The notes under the pieces: generated by a model
What the model was told of the DNA's origin: nothing
Databases searched by the model: none
The model's input: only the letters and a program-made list of their open reading frames with translations
Shown: positions 22,964-37,724 of the stretch, piece by piece
Numbering within the stretch: position 1 is the stretch's first letter
Layout: every line of letters starts with the position of its first letter
Origin: Woeseiaceae bacterium
GTDB lineage: Bacteria > Pseudomonadota > Gammaproteobacteria > Steroidobacterales > Woeseiaceae
Assembly: GCA_021773135.1 (NCBI GenBank)
Contig: JAJFKP010000018.1
Coordinates: 1-64,000, forward strand
Direction: 5' to 3'
DNA length: 64,000 nucleotides
Translations under genes and position numbers: made by a program

Positions 22964-23344
22964 ATGAAATCAGAAAAACTCACCAATTTTGGGATCGAGG
23001 TTCGAAAATACCGCGTGGAGCTAGGTGAGACGCTATATGACATGGCAACGACATTGGGCGTGAGCTCGTCGTACCTATCAGGAGTTGAAACAGGAAGAAA
23101 AAAAGCATCAGAGGATCTGGTTGAGGGACTCATAAAGCATCTCAATCTCGACATGATCAACGCAGTACAGCTGAAAAAGGCGGCTGCTGAGACCGGGCCG
23201 GAACTACGGATTCCTCTAAAGGGCAAAGGAAATGAAGCGCGGTATGTCGCGGCGATGTTCGCCAGAAAATTCTCCAGCGGAGAGTTTTCAGACTTAAAAG
23301 AGGCGCTGGAATCTATCAACAATGAGGGATCTGGGGAAAAATGA
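22964..23344 (+). CDS. XRE-family transcriptional regulator
   Basis: A 126-residue protein with an N-terminal helix-turn-helix (TLYDMATTLGVSSSYLSGVE TGR pattern, about residues 24-47) and a charged C-terminal part. Its stop overlaps the ATG of the ImmA-type peptidase by 4 nt. In mobile elements such as ICEBs1 this pair acts as repressor plus a peptidase that removes it on induction. By analogy it probably controls the element's lysogeny-like state. Confidence 0.85.
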   Translation: MKSEKLTNFGIEVRKYRVELGETLYDMATTLGVSSSYLSGVETGRKKASEDLVEGLIKHLNLDMINAVQLKKAAAETGPELRIPLKGKGNEARYVAAMFARKFSSGEFSDLKEALESINNEGSGEK

Positions 23345-23883
23345 GTGACCTGCAAGTTCGAGTAGCACCAACAAGTAGACTAAAACTACGAAAAAGCGCC
23401 GAGAAGGTTAGATCCTTGCTCGGCGTTAAGGTGCCCGGATTCCCCAGCGACGCATTTGACCTGCTTCTCAGCGGCAATTTTCCCGAGTACAAATTTGACG
23501 TTCTGGAAGCCGATATCATGGGGCCGCACCACGGCCTCACAGAACCCGACCAAAAAATAATGTTCTTAAGGGAGGACGTATACGAGGGCGCCATGCGAGG
23601 GGACGGCCGAGACCGTTTTACTTTCGCACACGAACTCGGACACCTACTCCTACACTCTGGCAATTACCTCGCCAGATACGACCCATCTGCACCAAATCCC
23701 ACACACAAGAAATATGAAGACTCAGAATGGCAAGCAGACAACTTCGCTGCGGAGTTGCTGATGCCTATAGCTGCAGTGAAAAAATGCGCGGACCCGACAG
23801 AGCTGATGGAAATGTGCGAAGTCTCGTACATGGCCGCCAGTGTCCGGTTCGACGTACTGCGCCAGGGGGGATTAATCAAGTAA
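23341..23883 (+). CDS. ImmA/IrrE-family metallo-endopeptidase
   Basis: A 180-residue protein with the zinc peptidase motif HELGH (97-101) inside DRFTFAHELGHLLLH. The downstream EWQADNFAAELLMP segment supplies the third ligand (Glu129), typical of the IrrE/ImmA (DUF955) family. It is translationally coupled to the XRE regulator, its likely cleavage target. A toxin-antitoxin role is an alternative for XRE/DUF955 pairs. It is followed by an intrinsic terminator. Confidence 0.9.
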   Translation: MSDLQVRVAPTSRLKLRKSAEKVRSLLGVKVPGFPSDAFDLLLSGNFPEYKFDVLEADIMGPHHGLTEPDQKIMFLREDVYEGAMRGDGRDRFTFAHELGHLLLHSGNYLARYDPSAPNPTHKKYEDSEWQADNFAAELLMPIAAVKKCADPTELMEMCEVSYMAASVRFDVLRQGGLIK

Positions 23884-23893
23884 ACACAAAAAA

Positions 23894-23914
23894 ACGGACC
23901 AGAGGTCCGTCTTT
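23894..23914 (+). terminator. Rho-independent terminator after the ImmA gene
   Basis: ACGGACC / GGTCCGT inverted repeat with a 3-4 nt loop (about 23894-23910) followed by CTTT, 10 nt after the ImmA stop codon. The T-tract is short. Confidence 0.6.
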
Positions 23915-24085
23915 CAGTCCATAAAAGCATCCGAAACGGTAGGTCGGGTGCTCTTGCAGATGGTCTAACTTTTAGTTCACACCTTAATGTTAGTCCTTAT
24001 CGCAGGTTTTTTAAACCCCTCTCCGGGGTTCGATCCCCTTCGGCCTGCAAGTTTGTGATCCCTGCCACAAAACGGAGAGTTCGCA

Positions 24086-24220
24086 ATGAAGCGCACTAGC
24101 CAAAATACCGTTGTGATTTTCAGACGGTTCAGACGAACCAAGAACGGAAAGGTTCTCGACGCATTCAATTATGGATTGCGTGCGTGGCCTATTCAGGTTC
24201 CGAAGAACAAGAAGAGCTAG
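24086..24220 (+). CDS. Small basic protein (44 aa)
   Basis: The frame starts MKRTSQNTVVIFRRFRRTKN and continues with KVLDAFNYGLRAWPIQVP before TAG. A GGAGAG ribosome site lies about 8 nt upstream. It is strongly basic, and the LDAxxYGxxAWPI pattern resembles small phage-encoded proteins of unknown role. It lies between the ImmA gene and DUF2188 and is followed by a GC-rich hairpin (24238-24262). No function can be given. Confidence 0.5.
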   Translation: MKRTSQNTVVIFRRFRRTKNGKVLDAFNYGLRAWPIQVPKNKKS

Positions 24221-24295
24221 CAACGGCAGCATAGGGATCGCCCGGCCTTCGGGTCGGGCGTGAACTTAAATTGACTTTCAAAGAGGTAACTTCAA

Positions 24296-24532
24296 ATGGG
24301 TAAGAAACGTGATGTTCATGTTGTTCCACACAAAGAGGGGTGGGCAACAAAACGCGAAGGGGCGAGCCGTGCTGGCTCTGTTCATCGCACTCAAGGCGAC
24401 GCGATCAATCGTGGTCGTGATCAAGCGAAGCGCATAAAGACTGAGCTTGTCATCCACGGTCGTGACGGAAAGATTCGGGATTCAGACAGCTACGGCAATG
24501 ACCCGCATCCACCAAAGGATCGCAAGCACTAG
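24296..24532 (+). CDS. DUF2188 family protein
   Basis: A 78-residue protein with the family hallmarks HVVPHKEGWATKREGASRAG, the central Gln-Gly-Asp-Ala-Ile, and the terminal HGRDGKIRDSDSYGNDP. The family is common in bacteria and often sits on mobile elements; its function is unknown. An AGAGGTAA ribosome site precedes the ATG and a strong terminator follows directly, so it is an independent small unit. Confidence 0.85.
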   Translation: MGKKRDVHVVPHKEGWATKREGASRAGSVHRTQGDAINRGRDQAKRIKTELVIHGRDGKIRDSDSYGNDPHPPKDRKH

Positions 24533-24539
24533 GCAACAC

Positions 24540-24570
24540 TGGGCCCGGTGGACGCCGGGCCCATTTTTTT
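24540..24570 (+). terminator. Rho-independent terminator after the DUF2188 gene
   Basis: Stem TGGGCCCGG (24540-24548) / CCGGGCCCA (24555-24563) with a 6-nt loop, followed by seven T residues. Confidence 0.92.
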
Positions 24571-24891
24571 CTGTCGTGAATTAGACTGTACTCCACAGGG
24601 CCAATCGCCACGATGTTATCGACATCACCGCTACGGCTTCTGACATGGTGAAGCAGTCCGTTGACGTGCTCATTCAACGGAGCGACGTTCAATATCATCG
24701 GCGATCCTACGGTCAGCGCAGCCGTTGAGACGACAGAAATCCTTCGGTCGCTTGCCGCCCAATTCCGCCGTTTGGGTTTCCCCACTAATTGCCAATTAAA
24801 ACGATGATATATTGCCTCGTCTTCATATCATACTGATTAACCGTTACGAAGCTGATCAATCGAACGCACATAAACGACATTTGGAACTTGA
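24571..24891. other. Gap with possible decayed coding sequence
   Basis: No intact gene is seen. Two adjacent plus-strand stretches in different frames look protein-like: DVIDITATASDMVKQSVDVL (about 24615-24675) and DPTVSAAVETTEILRSLAAQ (about 24700-24760). This could be a frameshifted gene remnant. The last ~80 bp are AT-rich and probably carry the promoter of the methyltransferase. Confidence 0.3.
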
Positions 24892-26001
24892 ATGGCAGCA
24901 AAAGAAAAAGGTCGAAACCTTCACAAAGCGAAAAGCTCCAAGAAAGACGAGTTCTATACTCAGCTCGTTGATATTGAAAAGGAGCTAAAGCACTACAAGA
25001 AACAGTTTCGTGGAAAAGTGGTGTATTGCAACTGCGACGATCCCTTTGAGAGCAACTTCTTCAAATACTTTGCTGCCAACTTCAATGCCCTCAAACTCAA
25101 GAAACTCATCACCACAAGTTTCGTGCCATCACCGATCGTTGGGGGGCAATTGCCGCTGATTGAAGTTGAGGGGTTAAAGCCTGACGGAAAGGGCCCGTTC
25201 AAAATAGAAATTAACGAAGTTAAAGACCTCGACTCTGACGGAGCTATCGGTCTGTCAGATGTTGAACTATTGCTAAAGCTTGATGCCAATGTCACCACTC
25301 CACTCGACGGCGATGGGGATTTTCGAGGTGACCAATGTGTCGAACTACTCAAAGAGTCAGATATTGTCGTAACAAACCCCCCGTTTTCACTATTTCGTGA
25401 ATACGTTGAACAACTGTCGACGCACGAGAAGCAATTTCTAATTCTCGGAAATCAAAATGCCGTCAAATACAATTTTGTCTTCAAGCTAATTAAGGAAAAC
25501 AAAGTCTGGCTCGGCTACGACAATGGAGGAACGAAGTGGTTCCAGGTGCCTGATGACTACGACATTAAGACCGAGTCGCGAAAAAAGATTGTAGACGGGG
25601 TCCAATACTTCAGCATGGGGAGCATAGTTTGGTTCACAAACTTGGAGACCACGAAGCGACATGAAACTCTTACGCTATATAGAAAATATACTCCCGAAGA
25701 ATACGCAACTTATGACAATTACGATGCGATAAACGTAGGTCGATACATCGACATACCACATGATTTCGATGGCCCAATGGGAGTGCCAATCACATTTCTC
25801 GGCAAATTCAATCCCGATCAGTTTGAGATTCTTGGAATATTTGACGACAAGAGAGAAAAATCAGACGCGTTCATTCAAGGCGCACCAACATACGTGGATG
25901 AGCAGCATAAGAAATATGTTGGGCCCGTTATAAACGGCAAAGCTCTTTACACAAGAGTATTAATTAGAAATAGGACGCCAACAAAACATCATGAAAATTG
26001 A
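24892..26001 (+). CDS. EcoRI-family adenine-specific DNA methyltransferase
   Basis: Predicted to transfer a methyl group from SAM to N6 of adenine in DNA. The 369-residue protein has the catalytic NPPF motif (162-165), preceded by DIVVT. An N-terminal CDDPFESNFFKYF segment (48-60) is characteristic of the M.EcoRI family. Length is a little above M.EcoRI. It overlaps the DUF262-HNH gene by 11 nt, so the two are made together. Codon use is AT-rich beside host genes, in keeping with transfer. The target need not be GAATTC. Confidence 0.88.
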   Translation: MAAKEKGRNLHKAKSSKKDEFYTQLVDIEKELKHYKKQFRGKVVYCNCDDPFESNFFKYFAANFNALKLKKLITTSFVPSPIVGGQLPLIEVEGLKPDGKGPFKIEINEVKDLDSDGAIGLSDVELLLKLDANVTTPLDGDGDFRGDQCVELLKESDIVVTNPPFSLFREYVEQLSTHEKQFLILGNQNAVKYNFVFKLIKENKVWLGYDNGGTKWFQVPDDYDIKTESRKKIVDGVQYFSMGSIVWFTNLETTKRHETLTLYRKYTPEEYATYDNYDAINVGRYIDIPHDFDGPMGVPITFLGKFNPDQFEILGIFDDKREKSDAFIQGAPTYVDEQHKKYVGPVINGKALYTRVLIRNRTPTKHHEN

Positions 26002-27088
26002 ACTCCACAAGATATCGGTGCGTGACGTGATCGCCGACTTTGAAGACAGCGCCGAAGAAGGCGTTACCGCTTATGGCGGCAAGCTCGACATACGTCCAAA
26101 ATATCAGCGTGAATTTGTGTATACCGGCAAGCAGCGGGACGCTGTAATCGAAACCATCAAACAGGATTTTCCGCTTAACGTGATGTATTGGATGGTGAAA
26201 GATGACGGTGGATACGAGGTGCTGGACGGACAGCAGCGTACCATCAGTATCGGGCAGTATGTAAACGGCGATTTCTCACTCGAGAACCGCTTTATTCATA
26301 ACCTAACGTCCGAAGAACAGAATCAAATACTGGATTATGAACTGATGATCTATTTCTGTGAGGGTACAGATAAAGAGCGTTTGGATTGGTTCAAAATTAT
26401 CAATATTGCCGGCGAAAAACTGACGGACCAAGAACTACGAAATGCGGTATATACAGGCCCGTGGCTTTCCGATGCGAAGCTAAAATTTAGCAAAACTAAC
26501 TGTGCTGCGTATCTCTTGGCGAACGACGGTGGTTCGCTCCTAAAGGGGTCGCCAATTAGGCAAGAATACCTTGAGACTTCTCTTTCGTGGATTAACAGCG
26601 GGGAAGTAGCAGACTACATGGCAGTACATCAGCACGATTCAGATGCTGACGCGCTTTGGAATTATTTCCAAAATGTAATCGCATGGGTGCGAACTAATTT
26701 CGCGATTTATCGCAAAGAGATGAAGGGTGTGGCGTGGGGAGAACTCTACAATGACTTCAAAGAGTCAGAACTAGACGCTGGAAAGTTGGAGACCGAAATC
26801 AAGGAATTGATGTTGGATGAAGATGTAACCAAGAAATCTGGTATTTATCCTTACGTCCTTACAAGACAGGAGAAACATCTTAACCTCCGTTCGTTTACCG
26901 ACAAAACGAAACGAGAGGTTTACGAAAAACAAAAAGGCATATGCCCTCGATGCAAAGAAGAAAAGCCATTCGACATTTCCGACATGGAGGCAGATCACAT
27001 CACGCCATGGCATGAAGGAGGAAAGACCACAGCAGAGAATTGTCAGATGCTATGCAAACCGTGCAATAGAACTAAGTCTGGAAAATAG
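25991..27088 (+). CDS. DUF262 and HNH endonuclease domain protein
   Basis: A 365-residue two-domain protein. The N-terminal DUF262 (GmrS/ParB-nuclease-like) part has PKYQREFVY and the DGQQR motif at 79-83. The C-terminal HNH nuclease has CPRC (318-321), DH (335-336), Asn350 and CKPC (355-358), so metal- and zinc-binding residues are complete. DUF262-HNH proteins are known in modification-dependent or phage-defence restriction (GmrSD, SspE, BrxU types). Translational coupling to the methyltransferase suggests a two-gene restriction-modification unit. Whether it cuts unmodified or modified DNA is unknown. Confidence 0.85.
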   Translation: MKIELHKISVRDVIADFEDSAEEGVTAYGGKLDIRPKYQREFVYTGKQRDAVIETIKQDFPLNVMYWMVKDDGGYEVLDGQQRTISIGQYVNGDFSLENRFIHNLTSEEQNQILDYELMIYFCEGTDKERLDWFKIINIAGEKLTDQELRNAVYTGPWLSDAKLKFSKTNCAAYLLANDGGSLLKGSPIRQEYLETSLSWINSGEVADYMAVHQHDSDADALWNYFQNVIAWVRTNFAIYRKEMKGVAWGELYNDFKESELDAGKLETEIKELMLDEDVTKKSGIYPYVLTRQEKHLNLRSFTDKTKREVYEKQKGICPRCKEEKPFDISDMEADHITPWHEGGKTTAENCQMLCKPCNRTKSGK

Positions 27089-27111
27089 AAAGACGACGTT
27101 GAGATCGTATC

Positions 27112-27147
27112 CAAAAAAAATACCCCGGCGGGCAATTCCTGCCGGGG
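27112..27147 (-). terminator. Rho-independent terminator for the leftward phage block
   Basis: On the minus strand CCCCGGC / GCCGGGG (27141-27147 with 27123-27129) forms a stem. The following bases are TATTTTTTTT, a good T-run. It lies 30 nt beyond the stop of the leftward gene at 27176 and also separates it from the convergent nuclease gene. Confidence 0.85.
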
Positions 27148-27175
27148 CAAATACTACAGACATGACATCTGAAAT

Positions 27176-27547
27176 CTAGGCGACGATCCAGCGATCACCA
27201 TCTTTCACAGAGTTGACGACCTCACCCGCTGCGTATTTCGGGTTTCTAAGATCCGTCAGACCTGTTTCGACACTGCCTTCTTTCACTCCGCATTCACGAG
27301 CGATGGCCTTGATGTCCTCTCGCGTGACGTAGCCGTTCTTCGCGAACAGAGCGCGGAGGAGGTTTTTGCTCGACTTGCGAGCTTTCTTCGCCTTGGGTTT
27401 GTCGACAATCTTCTGCTCGAATGATACGAGCAATTCTGACAGTTGAGCGACAGTGGCTTTGCTCGGTATTTTGGTGTCCGGACGCAGAGCGGTGATCTTC
27501 GCGCGGAGTTCAGACTTGGTTGGTGCTTTTGATTTTGCTGTGGACAT
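27176..27547 (-). CDS. Hypothetical basic protein with a winged-helix-like C terminus
   Basis: A 123-residue protein with a Lys/Ala-rich first half (STAKSKAPTKSELRAKITAL). A C-terminal region (LLRALFAKNGYVTREDIKAI and later) has the look of a small winged-helix or SAP-like DNA-binding fold. The start at 27547 is chosen over 27577 because AAGGAG sits 6 nt before it. It is the last gene of the leftward phage block. The function is unknown. Confidence 0.6.
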   Translation of the reverse strand: MSTAKSKAPTKSELRAKITALRPDTKIPSKATVAQLSELLVSFEQKIVDKPKAKKARKSSKNLLRALFAKNGYVTREDIKAIARECGVKEGSVETGLTDLRNPKYAAGEVVNSVKDGDRWIVA

Positions 27548-27671
27548 TTCAGTCTCCTTTCCTGTGATGTAACTCACGTAAAAAGTAAGACCACGCCGGG
27601 GCGCAGGGCCAGAACTGATTTTCCGTTAAATTCGTCTGCCAAGAATCGTGGCAGTTTGATGTTGGTGGCAA

Positions 27672-28037
27672 TTATCGGACGTGGTTTTCTCTTTCTGATT
27701 TGCGCCTATTTAGGCGGAAGCGAATGTAGTTTTCACTCTCTTCAAAAACGGTTGACAGAACATCAACGCGGGTGGTGATTTGGATCATTTCATTCCAATG
27801 TGCCACCGAGAATTTCTTGTGAGCTTCAAGGTCATAGACTGATCCTGATGGCTCCTTTGGTTCGTCACCGACGTGGCCGGTTGTGATCCAGTGGCGGTAG
27901 GGTTCACAGGCCAATGCTTCTTCACGACACTTCTCTTGAAATTGACAGTCGTTGCATGGAGCCGTCAGCCACAGCTTCTTCAGGAAGGCGAAACTCTGAG
28001 CGAAGTCACGTTCTCCGTGGAGGCTCTTCAAGGCCAT
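27672..28037 (-). CDS. Hypothetical phage protein with a four-cysteine cluster
   Basis: A 121-residue protein. Residues about 28-45 (CNDCQFQEKCREEALAC) hold four closely spaced cysteines that could bind zinc or an iron-sulfur cluster. The C terminus is basic (RFRLNRRKSERENHVR). There is no clear ribosome site before the ATG. It lies downstream of the Gly-rich small protein gene in the same leftward block. No family recognised. Confidence 0.5.
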   Translation of the reverse strand: MALKSLHGERDFAQSFAFLKKLWLTAPCNDCQFQEKCREEALACEPYRHWITTGHVGDEPKEPSGSVYDLEAHKKFSVAHWNEMIQITTRVDVLSTVFEESENYIRFRLNRRKSERENHVR

Positions 28038-28058
28038 TAGGCTAGTTTCAGGCAGGCA

Positions 28059-28262
28059 CTAAGGACCGCCACTTTTCACACCGTCGCCGCTGCCGCGCAT
28101 GTTAGGGCTGACACCGTTGCCGGAACCTTGCTTCTTGATGTTGCCGTTCCCCGTGCCAGCGCCCGGTGTACCAGATTTCTGGTCATTACCACTGCCGCCG
28201 GGTGTCCCACTTTTCTGTGCGTTGCTGGTGCCCCGCATATTCTTGCTCACGCCATTTGCCAC
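28059..28262 (-). CDS. Small Gly/Ser-rich repeat protein
   Basis: A 67-residue protein starting at a GTG with AGGAG 7 nt upstream. It is almost wholly built from short repeats: a NMRGxS/SG unit near both ends and QKSGTPGGSG-like units between. It has few hydrophobic residues and is probably disordered. It sits among late-type phage genes after the scaffold-like gene. A role as a flexible structural or decoration peptide is a guess only. Confidence 0.55.
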   Translation of the reverse strand: MANGVSKNMRGTSNAQKSGTPGGSGNDQKSGTPGAGTGNGNIKKQGSGNGVSPNMRGSGDGVKSGGP

Positions 28263-28328
28263 TTTCGTTCTCCTATCTCATAGTCGTCCATGCCCAATGG
28301 GCGATGGTCAGAATGAAAACCGCATCGA

Positions 28329-28565
28329 TCACGCGGCCTTCAGCTTCGGTGGCTTGCTTGGGTGGTAGGTGCCGTCATCCCAGATGTTGAATAGATGCTG
28401 GTGCTTCGGCTCTTGCTTCAGCTTGCTGAGGATAAATTCCCAGTGGCCTTCAAGCTCCTCAACGGTGTTCTGTTGCATCAAGTCCATCACGCCATTGACA
28501 TCGTGCCCTGCGTCAACAAGGTGGTGAAGAATAGTGTTCTGTATCATTCTGGATCTGTCTAGCAT
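28329..28565 (-). CDS. Hypothetical phage protein (78 aa)
   Basis: A small protein with a helical N-terminal half (MIQNTILHHLVDAGHDVNGV) and a Lys-rich C terminus (HPSKPPKLKAA). AGGAGAAGG lies just before the ATG, a strong ribosome site. It is one of a run of short genes between the scaffold-like gene and the end of the leftward block. No family or function recognised. Confidence 0.6.
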   Translation of the reverse strand: MLDRSRMIQNTILHHLVDAGHDVNGVMDLMQQNTVEELEGHWEFILSKLKQEPKHQHLFNIWDDGTYHPSKPPKLKAA

Positions 28566-28585
28566 GGTCCTTCTCCTGGTGGCTT

Positions 28586-29320
28586 CTATGCGGGTAGCTT
28601 CATGAAGGCGTCTTCACCGTGTTCTTTGATGAAGGCGACCTTGTCTTTTGTTTGCATCTGGCTGCGAGGTTTCGTATCAATTGTACGACCGCGCGATCCG
28701 CCTTTGTTGTTGCCGCCGCCGGTAGGCGGTGTGCCTCCGCCGCTGTGGCCACTGGCTTTGAACATCCGTCCCAGCCCCTCGGTGTACAGAGGATGCGATT
28801 TATCGCCAGCAGCCGCCGAGAGTTGGGCCGTGTAGTCGTTCACAGTGAGCTTCGCTCCGTCGTGCTCAATGTGGACAGTGACCTTGTCGCCGTCTACCTC
28901 GACCTTGACCTTTTCTTTTAGGTAAGCAGGCCCAAGCTCGGCGAATCCGTTGTTCGCTTCAATCGCTTCCGTGATCGCCTTGTCGCGGACTACCGTCTTC
29001 AGCGTCTTTGACAGCCCGCCGAAATTCTTCTCAAGGTCAGCAAGTTTCGTCTGAGCGGCTTGAAGTTCTTCCGCGCTGCCACCGCTTGTCTTCAGCGTTT
29101 CGATCTTCTCCTCCAGCGCCTTCACTTGCGCGTTGGACGCTTTGAAATTGTCGCGCTCTTTCTTCAGCGCGGATTTCAGACCAGAGACTTCCTCTAATCC
29201 TTCGACTTCAAGGCGGTAGATGGTGTGGTCCTCGCTGTCTTTTCGCTCGACGTAGTTCTCGTGGAGGTCTTCGTTGAGTGCGGTGTACTCGTCTTCAGTG
29301 AGTATGGTTTTAAGTTTCAT
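28586..29320 (-). CDS. Scaffold-like coiled-coil phage protein
   Basis: A 244-residue acidic protein. Residues about 45-110 are strongly predicted coiled coil (LKSALKKERDNFKASNAQVK; EELQAAQTKLADLEKNF). A compact region and a Gly-rich linker (GHSGGGTPPTGGGNNKGGS) follow, then a short C-terminal domain ending KEHGEDAFMKLPA. This layout resembles gp20-type capsid scaffolding proteins, which usually precede a major capsid gene. No capsid gene follows here. It overlaps the upstream gene by 11 nt. The assignment is tentative. Confidence 0.5.
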   Translation of the reverse strand: MKLKTILTEDEYTALNEDLHENYVERKDSEDHTIYRLEVEGLEEVSGLKSALKKERDNFKASNAQVKALEEKIETLKTSGGSAEELQAAQTKLADLEKNFGGLSKTLKTVVRDKAITEAIEANNGFAELGPAYLKEKVKVEVDGDKVTVHIEHDGAKLTVNDYTAQLSAAAGDKSHPLYTEGLGRMFKASGHSGGGTPPTGGGNNKGGSRGRTIDTKPRSQMQTKDKVAFIKEHGEDAFMKLPA

Positions 29321-30074
29321 CTGTGGCGTCCTCAGTTTGGAGTTTTATGCTGCCGCCATCAGCCAGGGATTTGGTTTTGTCCGGTGGTGACGGTTCATGT
29401 GTTTGGTCTTCGAGCATCGCGATATCGCTTTCACTGAATTCGGCTAACTCGGCGAGCACCTGCGTCGCGGTGCCAAAGGCTTTTTCAGCAGCCGTGATCT
29501 GCTTGTCAGCGAGTTCGACATCGCGCAGGACATCCATGTCGTCTTCGCTCAAGAGGCTTTCTTGAATGCGCTCTCGCTCGTCCTCCTGTACGCCGCTCAC
29601 CATCGCGTTTTCAGCGATCAGTGCTCGCGCCAATTCGGGATTCGCTTGCAGGTTGTGCGGCAGCAGGGCTGATGCACGTTGCTTGGGGTTGAGGTTCGTG
29701 AACGCTTGGATCAGGCGGTGGTGTGCCATGTTCGTCGCCGTGTCGTAGTCCGTGAGGGCGAGTGCCTTATCGGCAGTGGCCTTTAGCTTTTCGCGCTCCC
29801 TCAATGCCGTTGCGATGAACTTCGCTTTGGCACTGAAGAACGGTAGCGTGGCGTCGCGCAGTGCTGCCAACTGTCCTTGCGGCGTGAGGTTTTCGTCGCT
29901 GGCCAACGCACCTTTGATCTTCTCCACTTCCTCCGCGGCTTGGATCGCTTGGTTGTAGGCTTTGAAGATCGGGCTCTGGTCATTTCGTTCGCCCCACCAG
30001 TGTCCGAAATGACGCCGTTTGCCGTTGATGTGTCGGCTGACGTATTCATCGGGCTGCGGGCGAACCGTTGACAT
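29310..30074 (-). CDS. Hypothetical phage protein downstream of the large terminase
   Basis: A 254-residue, largely helical and charged protein (AYNQAIQAAEEVEKIKGALA; RQRASALLPHNL-type stretches), with an acidic C terminus. It occupies the slot where a portal gene normally follows terL, but it is much too short for a portal and shows no portal features. The start at 30074 is chosen because GAGGA lies about 6 nt upstream. No family recognised. Confidence 0.6.
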   Translation of the reverse strand: MSTVRPQPDEYVSRHINGKRRHFGHWWGERNDQSPIFKAYNQAIQAAEEVEKIKGALASDENLTPQGQLAALRDATLPFFSAKAKFIATALREREKLKATADKALALTDYDTATNMAHHRLIQAFTNLNPKQRASALLPHNLQANPELARALIAENAMVSGVQEDERERIQESLLSEDDMDVLRDVELADKQITAAEKAFGTATQVLAELAEFSESDIAMLEDQTHEPSPPDKTKSLADGGSIKLQTEDATDET

Positions 30075-30113
30075 CTGTCCTCTTCCTTTCTGTATGACTG
30101 GCATTTCGTTACC

Positions 30114-31703
30114 TCATGAAAATTGAGTTGGCTCCACGCCCGACATGGACGTGGGTAGCTTCTTGGGTTTGGTTGGGGCTGTGGGCTTCACCATGGTTGC
30201 TGACGATAGGTCTACGACGGTTCGCCTTTGACGTAACCGCTCGCGATATTTGGGATCGTCAATCTGACGCTTGTCGACTTTCACCGTTGACGCCGCCCAC
30301 GGCGCCGAGGTGACGTAGACGTAATTTTCAGGCCGCAGTGCCCACACCAGTCCGTACCGCAGTGAATCAAGAACGTGGTCAGCCGTGTCCGTATCGAGGT
30401 CTTCACGGTTACGGTCATCGTTCTTCGCCGCGAATGCGCATTCTTCGAAATAGACGCAGTTGGAGGCGTAGTAGAACGCGGGGTCAACGCGGTGCTGGGC
30501 GGGCTCGGCTTTCGCCATCAGGTCTCGCAGAATAGTCCAGCCCGCTACGCGGCCACCCTTCTGTGCGGGCAGGAGTCTCACGCCGTATTGGCTGAAAACA
30601 GATGCGATGCTCGTCGTACCGTGGTCGGCGAAACACGCATCGTCAGCAATCGCGCGCGGTGCTAGGTCTCGTCGCTCCAACCACTCGATTGCCCGTTCGG
30701 CGATCTCCTCAATCGGCCAGCCTTGACCTTTGTTGGGGTGCTCTTGCTGCGCGCTGTGAAGCTCGTCAATCAGGACTACGCTGTCGCGCGGGTAATGGGT
30801 GCCGTCGCCACCTCGACAATTTTCATTGGCGATGGCGATCAGTGTGAAGGCACAGGGCGCGCTGGTGCCATGGTCATAGCCGATCACGAATGACCAGAAT
30901 GGTCTGTCGCCCCATGTTTCGAGCCACGGCTTCGTCTTGTTGCGCTGAGTGCTGAGGACGGTCGCAAAATAGTTCCCCGACATGATCGTCCAGCTGCCTG
31001 TGATCCACGCTTCAGCGAGGGCGGGATCGCGTTCACTCATCGCATCAATTTGACGACGGTAGGACGGCGGCAGAAATGGATTGTCCGCGAGCGTTGAATG
31101 GACATAGGCAAAAATCTCGCCTGTCGTCTTTTCGACGAACGTGCTGATGCGCTCGCCCTCGCGGTGGTGCTTGGCGAAGGCCTCATAGACCCAGCCGTGA
31201 CCGACGCCGCCGGGGTTGCCTGTGCAGATGATGCGGCGGATCGTGTTCGGTTGTCGCAGCGTACTTCTGAGACGGTCGAACAGGAGCGGGTTATCCCAGC
31301 TTGGCAACTCTTCGAAGATGAGCATGGAGTAGGATTTGCCGTGGTGCCGCTCGTAATCTTCCCGCGTATCGCACTGACTGAACTCGACGGTTGCTCCGTT
31401 GGGGAGCGTCCATTTGGATTCGGCTTTGTTCCAATATTTTCTGACATCGCGGTCTTGCAGTAGCATCGCGAACACAGAGATAAATAAGTCTTTCAGTTGC
31501 GCTAGATCACGCCACTGACGTCTGAAGATTTCTACCTTGGCGTGTTCGCCGTACTGCATACAGTGGCGAAAGACGATGAAGGGCAGGACTTGGGTCTTAC
31601 CCCCGCCGCGACCCCCACCCAAGAACAGATGCACGTCTTCAGGTATTGCCAGAATGTCAGCTTGGAATTCACTGAGGTCGATTGCGGTGGCTTCTTGGGA
31701 CAT
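30114..31703 (-). CDS. Phage terminase large subunit
   Basis: Motor ATPase and nuclease that packages DNA into proheads. The 529-residue protein has Walker A GGRGGGKT (30-37), Walker B MLIFEE (127-132), a coupling CTGNPGG motif and a C-terminal RNase H-like nuclease beginning VIGYDHGTSAP. A further acidic motif follows around ADDACFAD. Full length for a Terminase_6-type TerL. Its ATG overlaps the small subunit stop by one base, as is usual for terS-terL pairs. Confidence 0.92.
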   Translation of the reverse strand: MSQEATAIDLSEFQADILAIPEDVHLFLGGGRGGGKTQVLPFIVFRHCMQYGEHAKVEIFRRQWRDLAQLKDLFISVFAMLLQDRDVRKYWNKAESKWTLPNGATVEFSQCDTREDYERHHGKSYSMLIFEELPSWDNPLLFDRLRSTLRQPNTIRRIICTGNPGGVGHGWVYEAFAKHHREGERISTFVEKTTGEIFAYVHSTLADNPFLPPSYRRQIDAMSERDPALAEAWITGSWTIMSGNYFATVLSTQRNKTKPWLETWGDRPFWSFVIGYDHGTSAPCAFTLIAIANENCRGGDGTHYPRDSVVLIDELHSAQQEHPNKGQGWPIEEIAERAIEWLERRDLAPRAIADDACFADHGTTSIASVFSQYGVRLLPAQKGGRVAGWTILRDLMAKAEPAQHRVDPAFYYASNCVYFEECAFAAKNDDRNREDLDTDTADHVLDSLRYGLVWALRPENYVYVTSAPWAASTVKVDKRQIDDPKYRERLRQRRTVVDLSSATMVKPTAPTKPKKLPTSMSGVEPTQFS

Positions 31704-32287
31704 CAGAAGCGGCCTTTGAAGAGTGGGGTTGCGTCCTTCAGTTCGTCGCTTTGCTGGATGATGATTTGTTCGTCGCGCTGCTTCAACCAGTCCTTGGTAT
31801 CCGCTGCTGGGGGAATGATATTCAACTGGAGATTCAGGTTCGTGGTTGCTATGCCACGCTGCTCTTCAGACAGGTCCTTGCGGAAGTACCGCATCCACAT
31901 GGAGACGGCTGTCAGATTGCCCTCTTTCGCCTCCTTCTCAACCACGTTGATCATGGTCTTGGTCTTGCGGCTGCGAGCCTTGTTGATCGCGGTCTCTATA
32001 TCGGGGTTTTCTTTGCGCCATTTGGCGAGGGTGGTCTCATGTATTCCGAGGGTGGCTGCTATGTCCGCATAGGTGGGGAGATCAATTGCGGCTTTGTACA
32101 CCTTAGGGATGATGTCGTGGGGTATCAGAATCTCCTGCGATCCGACCGTCTTCTGTAGGGCTCTCAATTCGAGGTTCTGAAGGTATTCAGGATCGTGCTT
32201 TGCAGTGCCTTTCCTCACCATCCGCCAGCGCTGTCCTGAACCGTCCAGGTATTCGCGTTCGTGAGTGCCTTTGTTGATCGATGCCAT
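31703..32287 (-). CDS. Phage terminase small subunit-like protein
   Basis: A 194-residue protein directly upstream of and coupled to terL. It has a helix-turn-helix near residues 75-105 (TYADIAATLGIHETTLAKWR), as expected of a TerS that binds the packaging site. A helical region (KTKTMINVVEKEAKEGNLTA) follows. The start at 32287 is preferred because the longer frame to 32383 adds an Arg-rich, atypical extension. The ribosome site is weak, so the start is uncertain. Confidence 0.75.
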   Translation of the reverse strand: MASINKGTHEREYLDGSGQRWRMVRKGTAKHDPEYLQNLELRALQKTVGSQEILIPHDIIPKVYKAAIDLPTYADIAATLGIHETTLAKWRKENPDIETAINKARSRKTKTMINVVEKEAKEGNLTAVSMWMRYFRKDLSEEQRGIATTNLNLQLNIIPPAADTKDWLKQRDEQIIIQQSDELKDATPLFKGRF

Positions 32288-33024
32288 GCCCACAAATTGC
32301 GATGATCTGGGGGTGATCTGCAACCGAACCCGCCATGAGCTTGCTTTGTCTCTGCATGGTCGCGGTGTCGTTGCCAACGACATTACGAGTCGCGGCGGTT
32401 TGAGAGCGACTCGTGGAGTATTGGCTAAACTACTGGGCTCGCTAGAAAGTGCGCCTATTGCCTATTTGGCGCTGCCTGTTTGACAGGGTTTCTATTAGGC
32501 GACAAGGCGCGTCCAATAGCAGTAAACCAATGGTGGTATGAAAGCGTGAGAGATCGGCGATGATTTGGGCTCGTCGCGGTTTACCGGGGGTGGCTTTGCA
32601 GCGGATCGCAGGTAATGGACTGCTGGCGGTGGTGAAATGGTGGTGATCAGGCCGAATTAAGGAAGGCGTCTGTCTAACTCCTCGGCCAGTCCGGTCAACA
32701 AGCACTTACCTTCAGAGACCCTCTGCATCGCAGTGAAACTCACCAGAATCGCACCCCTTACATCCGTAACGCACCCGTAACGCCCTCAACCTACCGTCGC
32801 TCCGCCGTTTGTTATTGGTGTTACGGGTGTTACTTATAGAATTAAGTTATGTAAGCAATCAATCAAACACTCCATAAGCAACGCTTCAACAACACTGCGT
32901 TTTTGATTCTTTATATAGTCTGAATGCCGAAATACCCGTACAGCCCTAACACCCGTTACAAATCGCTCAACGACGGTGCTTTGGCCTTCCCCGGATCCAG
33001 CACGGACACCCCTGCACCCCATGC
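32288..33024. other. Non-coding region between terS and the primase gene, with iterated CCGTAAC motifs
   Basis: No convincing gene is seen in 737 bp. CCGTAACGC occurs at 32764-32772 and 32775-32783 (11-bp period). The inverse GGTGTTACGGGTGTTAC is at 32817-32833, and a looser copy (CTAACACCCGTTAC) is near 32945. An AT-rich stretch follows at 32833-32935. An origin of replication, an operator, or the packaging (cos/pac) site expected near terS are all possible. Confidence 0.45.
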
Positions 33025-35391
33025 TCAAAACGTCGGATTCCCGTCGTCGATGTCTTTTGGCCACTCAATAACGCGCCCAAGGTACTTTTCAAACTCGGCT
33101 CGGCAGACGTCAATCGTCGGCAGGTTGTACCAACATCCACTCCGCTGCTGACCTCTTGGCCACTCATATCCGCTCGCTCGTCGCCGCGGATTGTAATTCT
33201 CCGGCAGCACCATTCGCACATAATCGCGCGCGAAAATCGCCTTCGATTCAGGTCCATCCTTGTTCGGAGATCGCTGTCGGTGAGTGAGATACGTTTCCCA
33301 GATTACGTCGATAGGTACGCGCTCGAATTCAAACGGCGCTCCACCGAAATTGCCTTCATGCAGACTGTCATACCAGAAGCTCTCGAACGCGTTCAATGAC
33401 AGGTCTTTCTGCGCGTCTTTGGCAGCGGTTTTCGGCAATAGTCGATGGTTCCAATCTGTTACCTCAATTTCGTGAAGCAAGCGATGCATCAGGACGTTCA
33501 TTCCGCCGCCGTCCATCTCCTTCACGACGTTGTCAAACCAGTCGAAATTTCCCTTCATTTTCTCGCTGACATTTGTCACGACAAAGCGGCGGTCGTCACC
33601 CTCGATGTCAGCCACTTGTTTCTGGTTCGTCGCGAACATCAATTTGAGGCGATTTCGCATCTGGGTCACGTCAATGAACTTTGCTTGGATGGACAGCGAC
33701 GGCTCGGTGATGATCGCTTTCATTTGGCTCGCCTGAACACTGCTCTTTGGCCTGACGGCTTCATCAGCGAACCCGAACAAAAGGTCGACCATGTGCATAT
33801 TGAAATCCGCCAGCAGGTCGCTGGTCTTGCTGAAGTGATACCAGTGGTTTCCGAACAGCCGACCGTAGGTTCTCGCGTACATGCCTTTGCCAATTCCTTG
33901 ACCGCCGAGCATCGCGAGCGCGACCTCACCGAGCAGTCCGGGTCGCTGAATTCCGCGCGCTTTCCACTTCCAGAAATATTCTGCGAGTTCCGCGTTGCCA
34001 TCACAGATAATCTCGTTCACCAGTTCGTCGAAATACGGTATGGAACCGGCCTTGGGTTCGTACGGAAAGCCAGCCCACATATTGAACACGCCGTTGCCTA
34101 AATATCCGCAGTCACGTGAGGGGTCCATAATCATGCTTTCGTAGGTGCGCCTTTCAGGATGCTCCATCCAGAGCTTGAATTTCGGGACAGGTCGGTCGCC
34201 AACTTCGATCAGGTTGTTGGCTTCGAAGATTGCGAGGTCGCTGGGTTTGAAGAAACGATATTCGATCCGTCGCTCCTTGCCCATGGTCGTTCTGAACTGC
34301 TCGACAATCGCCACCTTGCCGCCGCGCTTGGCCACCGCGTATTTCTGGTTGAGTTCGTTGCAGGCTGCGTTCTTCGCTTTGTCAGTCTCCTCGTTTATCG
34401 GTCCGAGGTTTCCGAAGCGCCGTTTGGCGCAGACCGATTTGTCACAGAAGTGCTTCATCGGTTGTTTGTTGCAGGCGTAGCCATAGTCTTTTCGGGCCGC
34501 TGATTTGAGTACCGTGTTGTTCAGTTCCTTTTCCGTGAGCGGCATAGGTAGCTTCGCGTTGAACGCGAGCATTGCGTCGCGCCAGTCGTCACCATGCTTG
34601 TCTTTGGCGTAGACCGAGAAGTGCATCAGCGCTTCATTGCGGCCGTCGCTGATGCGGGCGTCAATCATGTCTTGAAGGCAGGGCGGACCATCGGCATAGT
34701 CGCCAGCCGCTTTGGGTTTGGTCTTCGTAGGTACTTTCAGAGCCGTCAGCTGCTCCGCAGTCATCAATCGTGACTCGGCGAAGTCCAAGAAAGGAATCAG
34801 GTCCAGCCGCTTGCCCATCGCGTCGAGGCCGTAGCGCGTTGACACTTCATGATCGAAGTACGGCATGTTCAGCCAGTTGCCGACGCCACCCTCCTCCAGC
34901 TTTGTCTGCTTTGGGAATATCTCGCAGCCGTCATGCCCCATCGCTGTCGCCAGCTTCGCGAGCTTCGTGTTCACGGTCTTCGCGGAAACGCCTTCGCTGA
35001 AGAACGCCAGCACATGCGCGCCACCGCTCTTGCTCCTGCAAACAACCAGCGGCCAGTTCTGCTCTGTGATGAACTGGTGACACTGTTTCACCGCGTCGCC
35101 GTCGTAAGTGTCAACGTCGATGCAAGCCCAGTGACACGTCGCGTCATCGGTGATCGGTATGATGCCAAGTCCAACCTTGCCGGAAAGATGATCGCGCCAC
35201 GTCTCCGTCGTCGCGGGTTCGCCGATGGTCAGCGCCTTGCCGCCTTTCTTGTTCTTGCCTTTGCTCAGGTTGTCGTCAACTTGGTACTGGCCGTGAGCGC
35301 GATCCAAGCCTGTGAACAGCTTCGCCATTCGTGTGATGGTGGCGTCCGGTTTTGGTTTCGTCTTCGCCAACTTCGCAAAAGGGTCTGTCAC
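33025..35391 (-). CDS. Primase-polymerase with D5/SF3-like helicase
   Basis: A 788-residue replication protein. The N-terminal archaeo-eukaryotic-type primase domain has the metal motif DVD (92-94) and SGGAH (122-126), like the TOTE-system primase domain. A Cys-rich segment (HFCDKSVCAKRRFG) and a C-terminal helicase with Walker A GGQGIGKG (496-503) follow, then the Walker B-like DLLFGFADEA. The GTG at 35391 is chosen as start because a perfect GGAGGT lies 6 nt before it and the GTGA overlaps the upstream stop by 4 nt. It probably starts replication of the element. Confidence 0.85.
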   Translation of the reverse strand: MTDPFAKLAKTKPKPDATITRMAKLFTGLDRAHGQYQVDDNLSKGKNKKGGKALTIGEPATTETWRDHLSGKVGLGIIPITDDATCHWACIDVDTYDGDAVKQCHQFITEQNWPLVVCRSKSGGAHVLAFFSEGVSAKTVNTKLAKLATAMGHDGCEIFPKQTKLEEGGVGNWLNMPYFDHEVSTRYGLDAMGKRLDLIPFLDFAESRLMTAEQLTALKVPTKTKPKAAGDYADGPPCLQDMIDARISDGRNEALMHFSVYAKDKHGDDWRDAMLAFNAKLPMPLTEKELNNTVLKSAARKDYGYACNKQPMKHFCDKSVCAKRRFGNLGPINEETDKAKNAACNELNQKYAVAKRGGKVAIVEQFRTTMGKERRIEYRFFKPSDLAIFEANNLIEVGDRPVPKFKLWMEHPERRTYESMIMDPSRDCGYLGNGVFNMWAGFPYEPKAGSIPYFDELVNEIICDGNAELAEYFWKWKARGIQRPGLLGEVALAMLGGQGIGKGMYARTYGRLFGNHWYHFSKTSDLLADFNMHMVDLLFGFADEAVRPKSSVQASQMKAIITEPSLSIQAKFIDVTQMRNRLKLMFATNQKQVADIEGDDRRFVVTNVSEKMKGNFDWFDNVVKEMDGGGMNVLMHRLLHEIEVTDWNHRLLPKTAAKDAQKDLSLNAFESFWYDSLHEGNFGGAPFEFERVPIDVIWETYLTHRQRSPNKDGPESKAIFARDYVRMVLPENYNPRRRASGYEWPRGQQRSGCWYNLPTIDVCRAEFEKYLGRVIEWPKDIDDGNPTF

Positions 35392-35822
35392 GCGAACACC
35401 TCCACCCACTTCGCGCGGAAGTCATCAACCGACAGTCCGTCGATTCCGAACTTGCGATACTTCTCGTGTTTCAGAACGATCTTGCGTTGAGGCTCGTCAC
35501 AGTCGGTTGGTCGGTGACGCCACAGCGCCATGGCCTCATCACACTTCCACGCATCAGTAATCAGCTCACTATCGTTGAAGCGGGCGGCATAGTATTTCGA
35601 CGCTAGAATGTCGGTCCGCAAAGCTATGCCGTGCTGGCGAACGAAGACTTTTCTGAGTTTCGCGTAGGAGTCGATTTGATCCGCCCAGCGAACGCGAATG
35701 ACGAACAAGGGTGCTGACGGTCGGTCCGCTAGTCTCACGGTCATTGACGCCAGCATGGTGCCCATAGGCTCGTAACAAAGATCCGGCACCAGGAATCGTT
35801 TGTTGATATGAAGTAATTGCAT
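35388..35822 (-). CDS. Hypothetical phage protein coupled to the primase
   Basis: A 144-residue protein starting MQLLHINKRFLVPDLCYEPM, with a GGAG ribosome site 8 nt before the ATG. Its stop codon overlaps the primase start by 4 nt, so it is likely made with it and may act in replication. It has basic and aromatic-rich segments (YAKLRKVFVRQHGIALRTDI) but no motif I recognise. Confidence 0.6.
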   Translation of the reverse strand: MQLLHINKRFLVPDLCYEPMGTMLASMTVRLADRPSAPLFVIRVRWADQIDSYAKLRKVFVRQHGIALRTDILASKYYAARFNDSELITDAWKCDEAMALWRHRPTDCDEPQRKIVLKHEKYRKFGIDGLSVDDFRAKWVEVFA

Positions 35823-35898
35823 CTCTGCTTCTCCGGTTGCCCGGGCGCAGGTGATTTCGTATGGTTAGCTAGCTCTGTTGAAGCTCATCGCACCAAGA

Positions 35899-35931
35899 CC
35901 CTCATCACCATTGCTCGGTGATGGGGGTTTA
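35899..35931. terminator. Terminator-like hairpin after the excisionase-like gene
   Basis: CCCTCATCACC (35899-35909) pairs with GGTGATGGGG (35917-35926), directly beyond the stop of the leftward gene. The T-rich side faces the plus strand, so termination of the leftward gene would be weak or bidirectional. Confidence 0.5.
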
Positions 35932-36159
35932 TTTTGGGCTCATGTCGAGCGCCACCGCTTGCGCAGTAGATGTCACCTTTCGTGATTCAATCCAATTACG
36001 AACATCTTGCGGCGCGTATTTCACCATGCCGTTGATGCCTTTCCCTGCTTTGGTGAATACCGGGCCGCCACCGCTGACGCGATAACGGATGAGAGTATTC
36101 AACGGCAGGCCGAAGGTGTTGGCCACTTCTTCAGTTGATAACAGTTTTTCATCGGACAC
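35929..36159 (-). CDS. AlpA/excisionase-like helix-turn-helix protein
   Basis: A 76-residue protein with LLSTEEVANTFGLPLNTLIR followed by a wing-like PVFTKAGKG and VKYAPQDVRNWIE. This is the pattern of MerR/HTH_17-type DNA-binding proteins used as excisionases or AlpA regulators. The GTG at 36159 is preferred because GGAGG sits 8 nt upstream; an ATG at 36207 has no ribosome site. It lies between the integrase and the replication genes, a usual place for xis/alpA. Confidence 0.75.
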   Translation of the reverse strand: MSDEKLLSTEEVANTFGLPLNTLIRYRVSGGGPVFTKAGKGINGMVKYAPQDVRNWIESRKVTSTAQAVALDMSPK

Positions 36160-36293
36160 GACAATGCCCTCCAGATCAATGTTGAAACCTGAAGCCCGCA
36201 ATGTCATCTTTGGTTGTAGTATTTAGCTGGGTTGACGCCCCACAATGGCGACCTGATGAGTTTGGGCAACTCGAGTCACTACGCTAACATCTG

Positions 36294-37565
36294 TTAGACG
36301 CTTACCGCAACTCCATGCTTGTCTAGCAACGCTTTCAGCCTGTCGCCGACCACGATTTCCGCGCTGTACAGGTGCTCGTCGTAGATGTCGCCGTATTCAG
36401 ATTCTGCGATTCCAAGCTCCTTGATGCTGTGATCTGTGAGGGCGTATCGATACTTCGCCTCAATGTCACAGCGGTCTCGCTGGTTGATGTAGAAGCGGCG
36501 CATGGAGTAGTAGACGACCCGGTATTCAAGTTCGTCCTTAACCGTCTCCAAGAGTTCGCCGGGCGAGGTCATCTGAAATCGAGTGCTATTCCGTGACGGA
36601 AAAACGAAGTCACGTCGCTGGTCGAACATATATCGTTCGCGCCTCATATCGTTGTGCCACCTTCGCAGTGCTGCCACGGCAAGCGGATTCAGATACTTCC
36701 TGAAAACATCCGGTCGCATTTCAGCATCGTGTCGCTTGGCTCCATTGATTTTTTGCTCGGTGGCATCAAAGTCGATGTAGGGAGCGTCGTCGAATAGGTC
36801 TTGCAGCATGCTCCACTTCACCCGTGCCGCCTCCTCCCACGTCCGTAGCCCTGTGAAAGCACATACGAGCCAATGAGTGGCGGCGACAGGGTTTCTACTG
36901 TAGCTGGACTCCGCGAGTGCCACGGCGGTCGCCCAATCGCCGTCTCGCGCAAATGCGGGATGATGTGTCGTGCGATGTTTGGCCTGCCTGTACGCGAGAT
37001 TGATGCCCGCAATCGGAAATGGAAACACGCCGCGCGGCAGTCGCTCATTCCAGTGTTTCGCGACCATGGCTAATCGGCTGAAAGCCTTTTTGACATTGTG
37101 CTCGCTTTCGCCGCTCTTCCGCATCTTGATCGCTTTGGTTTCAAATTCTCGTGGATTCGAGAATGACACCATCAGCCTGTCGTTCCAGCCCAGCCTGTCA
37201 AGGTAGCTTTCGTAGGCCCTCGCAGTGCTGTCCTTCAGACTGGTGACGTTCAGATAATCTGCGAGCGACTGCTCCACTGTCCATTCTTGGAGTTCACTGG
37301 TTCGCTGCTCCTCGCCTTTCTTGATGGATCGCAGGATATCTAGCGATTCACCCTCAGCCTGTTCAACGTTCACGACAGGCCACGTTCCAATCTTTTTCTG
37401 AACTGATCGGCCTTGGATGGTCTTAATGAACTGAAAGGTCTTTGTTCCGCCCGGACTGTGAAGCAAGTAGAGCGGATAGGATCGATCAGGATGGCGAAGT
37501 CGACACTGACTTGACGGTGGTGGCAATTTCGCAATACCAGTATCGGTGGTTGGCATTTTTTTCAT
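36294..37565 (-). CDS. Tyrosine-type integrase
   Basis: A 423-residue site-specific recombinase, probably responsible for insertion next to bamD. The C-terminal catalytic domain shows Arg241 in FTGLRTWEEAARV, Arg356/357 in YSMRRFYINQ, His379 in ALTDHSIKELG and a candidate nucleophile Tyr400 in DEHLYS. The usual box II His before Arg is not obvious, so the protein is divergent. The start at 37565 is chosen because GGGAG lies 7 nt upstream; the longer frame to 37763 would run through the candidate att site. It is adjacent to attR, as is typical. Confidence 0.8.
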   Translation of the reverse strand: MKKMPTTDTGIAKLPPPSSQCRLRHPDRSYPLYLLHSPGGTKTFQFIKTIQGRSVQKKIGTWPVVNVEQAEGESLDILRSIKKGEEQRTSELQEWTVEQSLADYLNVTSLKDSTARAYESYLDRLGWNDRLMVSFSNPREFETKAIKMRKSGESEHNVKKAFSRLAMVAKHWNERLPRGVFPFPIAGINLAYRQAKHRTTHHPAFARDGDWATAVALAESSYSRNPVAATHWLVCAFTGLRTWEEAARVKWSMLQDLFDDAPYIDFDATEQKINGAKRHDAEMRPDVFRKYLNPLAVAALRRWHNDMRRERYMFDQRRDFVFPSRNSTRFQMTSPGELLETVKDELEYRVVYYSMRRFYINQRDRCDIEAKYRYALTDHSIKELGIAESEYGDIYDEHLYSAEIVVGDRLKALLDKHGVAVSV

Positions 37566-37724
37566 GGTTGGCTCCCGTATGCAAAAATTATGCAGACACT
37601 TGGCGCGATTGAGTGTTACTACATGCGTGAACATGCACTGACATACACTCAAAAACTCCTTGTATAACAGTGTCTTACGGTTACCGTACGGCCTAAGGCC
37701 AATGACTGCAACAAGAGCGATTTT

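Follow-up and report, generated by a model that had tools for sequence, protein, structure and literature searches.

Does an EcoRI-family DNA methylase whose gene runs into that of a DUF262-HNH protein work together with it, and as what kind of system? The question is raised by a locus in a 64,000-nt stretch of the genome of a Woeseiaceae bacterium (assembly GCA_021773135.1, contig JAJFKP010000018.1, positions 1 to 64,000 of the forward strand; hereafter the window), where the gene for an EcoRI-family adenine-N6 DNA methyltransferase (M) overlaps the gene for a protein with DUF262 and HNH nuclease domains (R) within a satellite-like integrated element (Table 1). We think it probable that the pair is a two-gene restriction-modification system carried as cargo of this element, with M protecting against R. 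This reading is built on the two intact genes, their tight and widespread association, their conserved order and frequent overlap, their active-site residues, viral copies of M that lack R, and the predicted fold of R. As in type II systems, separate methylase and endonuclease genes adjoin in the window, the endonuclease role of R being read from its domains.

Two overlapping genes for a methylase and a nuclease

M matched the Pfam family EcoRI_methylase (PF13651) over its full length (residues 9–360 of 369; E = 2.2e-135) and the PADLOC model MTase_II (PDLC03297; E = 2e-123), which M.EcoRI also matches. R matched GmrSD_N/DUF262 (PF03235, residues 34–154; E = 3.5e-18) and HNH (PF01844, residues 318–363; E = 7.2e-13), and its residues 1–365 aligned with positions 1–372 of the 372 in the PADLOC model REase_II (PDLC03418; E = 6.7e-135), a model that matched all 68 R proteins scanned, the window's included. 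In a Pfam scan of R up to E = 0.1, the only families returned were PF03235, PF01844, HNH_5 and, weakly, Endonuclease_7; neither DUF1524 (GmrSD_C) nor PF02963, the PD-(D/E)XK-type family of the EcoRI nuclease itself, was among them. NCBIfam gave no match for M and, for R, only distant Cas9d/IscB matches far below the cut-offs.

Both genes are intact and lie on the plus strand with M first. The reading frames, the 11-nt overlap and the full set of HNH and DGQQR residues (DGQQR at 79–83; D335, H336, N350 and N359; C318, C321, C355 and C358) are as a first-pass annotation of this DNA had described them, and its proposal that the genes form one unit on a mobile element agrees with the sequence and with the gene order in relatives (below). 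Its suggested comparison of the HNH domain with those of GmrSD, SspE and BrxU needs a correction, the domain being PF01844 and not their DUF1524. Among homologues, NPPF is identical in 159/159 aligned M proteins and DGQQR in 131/131 R proteins, the window's included in each case; of the HNH residues in 131 R proteins, H336 and N350 occur in all, D335 in 129, N359 in 126 and C358 in only 60. Because DGQQR is invariant, nucleotide use by R is likely, and the motif suggests that R is an enzyme that uses nucleoside triphosphates (NTPs), unlike ordinary type II enzymes.

The structure model of R (predicted local distance difference test score, pLDDT, 88.7) had a predicted template modelling score (pTM) of 0.61, so the placement of its domains is unsure. 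The N-terminal domain (residues 1–142) was predicted to have a ParB/sulfiredoxin-type fold like those of BrxU and SspE, and residues 303–365 of the model matched the HNH nucleases Gme HNH, McrA and Cas9. The best match in the Protein Data Bank was BrxU (7p9m; Z 8.6 and root-mean-square deviation (rmsd) 3.2 over 119 residues of a single domain), for which a longer alignment gave Z 9.1 and rmsd 12.9 over 177 residues; SspE (6jiv) gave Z 7.3 and rmsd 3.2 over 127 residues. The single-domain Z values are middling, BrxU lies only slightly above the other matches, and residues 143–300 are barely covered. When solved structures were searched by sequence, R gave matches through its HNH domain only, with BrxU as a weak profile match, and no chain related to M.EcoRI was found, only weak unrelated matches; M itself was modelled with a pLDDT of 79.8.

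From these features and the associations described below, we infer methylation, cleavage, nucleotide use, translational coupling and a target site. M would methylate adenine in a specific short site on resident DNA. R would bind DNA, with its DUF262 domain acting as a nucleotide-dependent sensor, and its HNH domain would cut where M's site is unmodified, which would make R a nucleotide-using nuclease that spares M-methylated DNA. With M translated first and R presumably coupled to it through the overlap, protection would come before attack.

The resemblance of R to SspE brings in another possibility: M's mark on resident DNA might switch on or guide R through the DUF262 domain, and R might nick or cut unmodified invaders, not necessarily at M's site. 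The first-pass annotation had proposed such self-marking with attack on foreign DNA, and we keep it as a rival, to which the structural matches to SspE and BrxU, the invariant DGQQR, the lack of any R clearly found without M, and the reported reliance of SspE on its host's own mark (accessible part of PMC9646914) all lend weight. R lacks SspE's DUF1524 nuclease domain, however, and viral copies of M without R would fit plain protection equally well, so that we regard self-marking as unlikely.

M and R as neighbours in genomes, plasmids and viruses

All searches for relatives were seeded with the window's proteins or with EcoRI's, and the resulting counts are not a census. Out of at least 561 relatives in genomes, the 80 loci most similar to the window's R (64–80% identity) were taken, and they give no measure of how frequently M is accompanied by R. 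In 72 of these 80 loci, M is found upstream of R in the same orientation. In the other eight, the contig starts 1 to 2286 bases before R, with fewer than 500 bases in six, and no lone R with a full upstream view was found among them; in the two longest, the genes directly upstream of R encode a BRO-domain protein (L053) and AbiJ/Abi_C and RhuM proteins (L072). Among 28 viral R loci, M is upstream in all 26 that hold R over most of its length, and the other two contain only a C-terminal piece of R.

Three phylum samples comprised 379 Patescibacteria-type genomes (the phylum of L004), 398 genomes of the window's phylum and 299 of the phylum of G068; the phylum names are inferred from the titles of the L004 and L063 records and, for the window, from its genes, and for two of the samples the central genome (G060 or G068) had been known beforehand to encode R. 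In the Patescibacteria-type sample, 38 genomes had M, 38 had R (E ≤ 1e-20) and 36 had both, compared to 3.8 expected by chance (Fisher p = 1.5e-45); the exceptions were M-only G178 and G378 and R-only G209 and G271, the last of which has stop codons within R. In the window's phylum, M above the Pfam cut-off was present in 4/398 genomes, the window's own included, with R adjoining in all four. The phylum of G068 yielded eight M genes above the cut-off in 7/299 genomes, six of them adjoined by R; of the remaining two, the M of L207 is truncated, and that of L209, from G068 itself, lies in an open frame of 718 aa. Without the sample centres G060 and G068, the M-with-R counts become 35/37 and 5/6. 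The Fisher value, together with full-length homologues in the same order in the 72 loci and 36 genomes, rules out chance neighbours, and the co-occurrence check that the first-pass annotation had called for thus came out in favour of a linked pair.

EcoRI-type R was found in 0/12 M loci of the window's phylum and the phylum of G068. The viral M loci, which are the best 80 of 99 picked by similarity to the window's M, had a DUF262-HNH R in 39 cases and an EcoRI-type R in one. Among plasmids, 43 records held a DUF262-HNH R versus 17 with an EcoRI R (at least 80% coverage each), and M was in the same record for 35 of the 43 (at least 80% coverage), the remaining eight being E. faecium records outside the check. 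In samples chosen by M, a DUF262-HNH R is the commonest partner of the EcoRI-family methylase, and an EcoRI-type partner is rarer. The first-pass annotation had spoken of an unusual restriction-modification system; restriction-modification stands as the best reading, but for this methylase family the pairing is not unusual. As a side observation, one of 14 named control genomes, Corynebacterium glutamicum, contained an EcoRI_methylase family match above the cut-off.

The steady presence of M also bears on a third possibility, that R is a type IV-like, modification-dependent enzyme, directed for example against hydroxymethylated phage DNA, while M does another job. The kinship of R's DUF262 domain to GmrSD and BrxU speaks for it, but M is linked to R in 36/38 R genomes of one phylum and in 72/80 loci, and we know of no such methylase linkage for type IV enzymes. 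In addition, R has a PF01844 HNH domain in place of DUF1524, and some viruses retain M next to no more than a stub of R. We reject type IV action as the main explanation because M accompanies R almost constantly and DUF1524 is missing, and we consider it very improbable altogether.

Gene layout was counted over 114 distinct loci in which both genes are complete, the window included, with nine viral contigs that had been fetched twice counted once. The genes overlap in 39 of them (by 11 nt in 11, the window's among these, by 4 nt in 27 and by 1 nt in one); in the rest, the spacing is 0–10 nt in 49 loci, 11–110 nt in seven and more than 250 nt in 19. A third open reading frame (ORF) lies between M and R in all 17 wide-gap loci examined (L007, L008, L022, L032, L034, L040, L042, L043, L046, L051, L054, L059, L060, L075, L077, L079 and L080), and four of ten third-gene proteins scanned were above a family cut-off: T5orf172 (L008), DUF2130 (L032), Fic (L060) and DUF6602 (L079). 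By eye, the third genes of L022 and L040 resemble the T5orf172 gene of L008, and the gap looks like a landing place for further defence-type genes. Other arrangements were seen as well. A Variovorax plasmid (L210) has two tandem EcoRI-family methylase genes followed by one DUF262-HNH gene, and in L195 an M.EcoRI-family domain is fused to a cytosine-5 methylase (700 aa) beside a 292-aa neighbour that matches no family; the open frame of L209 is similarly long.

How does this pair relate to EcoRI? The window's M belongs to the same family as M.EcoRI (45% identity by tblastn, 51% over aligned columns), whereas its R, with DUF262 and HNH domains, is unrelated to EcoRI's PF02963 nuclease, and the order M then R differs from the R then M of the EcoRI-type loci read. 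A carefully built, midpoint-rooted tree of 63 M proteins, with which a quick 105-row tree agrees (its row L192 covers only the initial fragment of an interrupted M gene), groups five M with EcoRI-type R and two R-less viral M into a set of seven (support 100/99). The sister of this set is L136, which has a DUF262-HNH R (97/91), and all of these belong to a larger set of 25 rows, 13 of them with a DUF262 R (98/95). M.EcoRI is likely a small branch inside a DUF262-HNH-paired family, and the EcoRI nuclease likely reflects a partner swap, the direction of which is not proved by a midpoint root. EcoRI-type nucleases also lie beside genes with other annotations: in Acinetobacter schindleri, a nuclease with 48% identity to EcoRI adjoins a 'DNA methyltransferase', and in Paracoccus marcusii, one with 30% identity across half of its length adjoins a 'DNA adenine methylase'. 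Because EcoRI-type R has these other annotated methylase partners and M mostly has a DUF262-HNH R, both sides of the EcoRI system seem to change partners.

Viral methylases without R and the search for a target site

In the 80 viral M loci, an intact R lies downstream in 39, an N-terminal piece of R in six and an EcoRI-type R in one; three have a remote R homologue upstream, and 31 have no R. In the three with the remote homologue, the large viral contigs L173, L174 and L175, it shares 28–29% identity with R and is placed upstream of M, not downstream. M without intact R accounts for 37/80 viral loci compared to 4/50 bacterial M (Fisher p = 2.3e-6, an optimistic value given the near-copies L118/L119, L146/L147 and L173/L174 among the viral loci). 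The bacterial figure combines 2/38 Patescibacteria-type genomes, 0/4 in the window's phylum and 2/8 genes in the phylum of G068; these 50 include the window and the G060- and G068-centred samples, and the viral class counts include the nine contigs fetched twice. Such a viral excess is as expected if M protects against R.

The remnants of R in viruses are short. In the six viral stubs and a mycobacteriophage stub, the R frame closes after 50 to 125 codons with no similarity to R thereafter, and stub-bearing M sit in at least four separate places on the M trees. Mycobacterium phages Hami1, Marchy and Norz share one common M (99.6–100% DNA identity); its protein and the M encoded on Gordonia plasmid pGKT1, where the R gene is intact, have 318/358 identical residues (89%). 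DNA homology between phage and plasmid starts 11 bases before M and stops 43 codons into R. To judge from these sequences, the mycobacteriophage M with its R stub is the picture of a stolen antidote, a methylase that would have been captured precisely. In two R-less viral loci (L131 and L132), a conserved 278-aa protein follows directly after M; the L131 copy matches D12-class adenine methylases, giving two methylases in a row.

Which site might the pair recognise? GAATTC is the first candidate, solely by the kinship of M to M.EcoRI. Site avoidance was scored for 64 six-base and 16 four-base palindromes in 30 of 36 carriers and in 60 non-carriers, and R clades taken separately and viral contigs were also put through the site test; no site emerged from carriers, flanks, R clades or viral contigs, and none is claimed. 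In the flanks of R loci, GAATTC was seen 191 times compared to 278 expected in the first-order model (rank 13) and 194 times compared to 202 in the highest-order model (rank 34). CAATTG came first of the 64 six-base words in the carriers (0.78 versus 0.97 in non-carriers, permutation p = 0.017), a word chosen after looking; with the first non-carriers recounted, it gave p = 0.0076 and rank 5, behind AGATCT, ATATAT, TGATCA and GATATC.

Several results weigh against the restriction-modification reading. GAATTC was not under-represented in carriers (observed/expected ratio 0.75 in 30 carriers versus 0.73 in 60 non-carriers, permutation p = 0.60) and was rejected as a site on avoidance, carriers and non-carriers being alike. 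The four-base words TGCA and AGCT gave larger z values (−3.4 and −3.1) than CAATTG, and CAATTG was rejected in turn because it was not significant when further carrier flanks were set against 20 new non-carriers alone (0.76 versus 0.90, p = 0.13, rank 19). The invariant NTPase-type motif in R is not expected of a plain type II enzyme. R is also more conserved than M, being nearer to the window's copy in 31/36 viral loci chosen by M; in type II systems, the reverse is usual, with R less conserved than its methylase. This greater conservation of R, even in loci chosen by M, suggests one shared target across the whole family, and the high conservation of R makes a common target site probable. Part of the 31 R-less viral M may have lacked an R from the outset, and 3/31 have less than 2.5 kb of contig downstream. 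The Patescibacteria-type genome G209 has R with no M found, and no activity of any member of the M–R family has been published in the literature searched.

The carrier element and comparison with known systems

The element, about 15 kb long, lies between host genes and reads, in order, XRE repressor, ImmA-type protease, DUF2188 protein, M and R on the plus strand, then scaffold-like protein, terminase large and small subunits, primase, helix-turn-helix protein and integrase-like protein on the minus strand, which places the M–R pair near one end (Table 1). Because the scan of the element's proteins, which covered a subset of the ORFs, revealed neither capsid nor tail genes, the element is likely a phage satellite. 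A search for attachment sites by repeats (seed 14) found only a tandem array near 38.7–39.1 kb, and exact matches between the two presumed element ends reached 11 bases at most. In this array, located beside the integrase end and close to the 3′ end of an NAD synthetase gene, a unit of about 121 nt occurs in 3–4 tandem copies. Among 60 relatives of the window's genome, the sole other trace of M consisted of two fragments in a single genome from the same order, and the M–R pair therefore probably arrived with the element.

The same observations, namely carriage on mobile elements (the satellite-like element here, plasmids and viral contigs) and fragments of M in a single relative, would also suit a non-defence role, such as addiction, in which post-segregational killing keeps the element and phages are little affected. 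Repeated finds of phage M with an R stub point to restriction pressure instead, and we judge a non-defence role quite unlikely. The two roles are compatible, however, and the odds of this one overlap with those of the restriction-modification reading; type II systems are known to do both restriction and addiction.

Table 1. Positions of the genes, domains and other features described in the text. Numbers for the window count from its first nucleotide.
Feature	Sequence	Position	Strand	Details
M, EcoRI-family adenine-N6 DNA methyltransferase	window	24892..26001	+	369 aa; ATG to TGA; NPPF at residues 162-165
R, DUF262 (GmrSD_N) + HNH nuclease	window	25991..27088	+	365 aa
Overlap of M stop region and R start	window	25991..26001	+	11 nt, read from the sequence
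DUF262 domain of R	window	26090..26452	+	residues 34-154; ParB/sulfiredoxin-type fold (predicted); DGQQR at residues 79-83
HNH domain of R	window	26942..27079	+	residues 318-363; PF01844
Satellite-like integrated element	window	22964-37763		~15 kb, between host genes
XRE repressor	window	22964	+	
ImmA-type protease	window	23341	+	
DUF2188 protein	window	24296	+	
Scaffold-like protein, terminase large and small subunits, primase	window	within element	-	
Small helix-turn-helix protein	window	35929-36207	-	by eye only
Integrase-like protein	window	36294-37763	-	489 aa; PF13356 match below cut-off
Tandem repeat array	window	38677-39082		
Phage M with first 43 codons of R	L190	2980-4208		Mycobacterium phage Hami1
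EcoRI-family endonuclease beside other-type methylase	L354	917-2807		48%
EcoRI-family endonuclease beside other-type methylase	L355	772-2642		30%
Two tandem methylase genes, then DUF262-HNH gene	L210	1288-5125		Variovorax plasmid
M.EcoRI-family domain fused to cytosine-5 methylase	L195	2180-4282		
R-less viral M, then 278-aa protein	L131	5001-6904		
R-less viral M, then 278-aa protein	L132	3142-5051		

A broader picture can be drawn from these results, although we would sooner doubt it than accept it as a whole. The pair may represent a class of restriction-modification systems that is widespread, NTP-dependent and methylation-sensing, its compact BrxU/SspE-like nuclease reading the adenine mark of its own methylase. 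The EcoRI methylase family would have originated in this class, with EcoRI arising inside it when a PD-(D/E)XK nuclease replaced the DUF262-HNH protein, and on at least four separate occasions phages would have taken the methylase together with no more than the beginning of the nuclease gene. If the pair works as proposed, a well-known methylase family would operate mostly with a nuclease that is absent from textbooks, and the DUF262 sensor of modification-dependent and phosphorothioate defence would also serve a minimal two-gene methylation system, which would lend itself to testing how self and non-self DNA are told apart by an NTPase sensor within just 365 residues. Viral M without R would be ready-made antidotes for a direct test. 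Roughly a tenth of the Patescibacteria-type genomes sampled (36/379) have the pair, and Patescibacteria are said to lack most classical defences (accessible part of PMC12455944).

Part of this is already known, in that PADLOC lists the nuclease among putative type II enzymes and neighbours of this sort carry names in NCBI records of many plasmids. REase_II (PDLC03418) covers R over its full length; it is a database model, of a type derived from REBASE, and its accessible entry states no mechanism, site or pairing. The first-pass annotation had allowed that a described restriction-modification family might already contain exactly this pair; PDLC03418 goes partway, by holding R, but we found no published description of a DUF262-HNH protein with an EcoRI-family methylase in the accessible parts of the papers searched (PMC4619093, PMC10952713, PMC12707154, PMC8713573, PMC6700114, PMC6329791, PMC4081073, PMC7248222, PMC12455944, PMC13059738 and PMC10734518), most subscription papers and REBASE being outside the search. 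What those sources do describe, as far as they were accessible, are DUF262+DUF1524 enzymes and HNH type II enzymes (GmrSD phylogenomics, PMC4619093; reviews, PMC10952713, PMC12707154 and PMC4081073).

Set beside individual systems, R combines features that are otherwise found apart. To our knowledge, the nucleases KpnI, Hpy99I, SphI and MboII have no DUF262 NTPase-type domain. They are HNH nucleases of type II systems (accessible part of PMC4081073), as R is proposed to be. With GmrSD and BrxU, R shares a DUF262 N-terminal domain with DGQQR, and BrxU is its best structural match, but R lacks DUF1524, and those enzymes act without a cognate methylase, unlike R, next to which M is so regularly found. 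With SspE, R shares, as far as the accessible account of SspE goes, a DUF262 sensor joined to a His-Me/HNH-type nuclease; it differs in that its nuclease domain is PF01844 and not DUF1524, and in that its partner in the window is an adenine methylase instead of SspABCD, the other scanned neighbours being phage-type.

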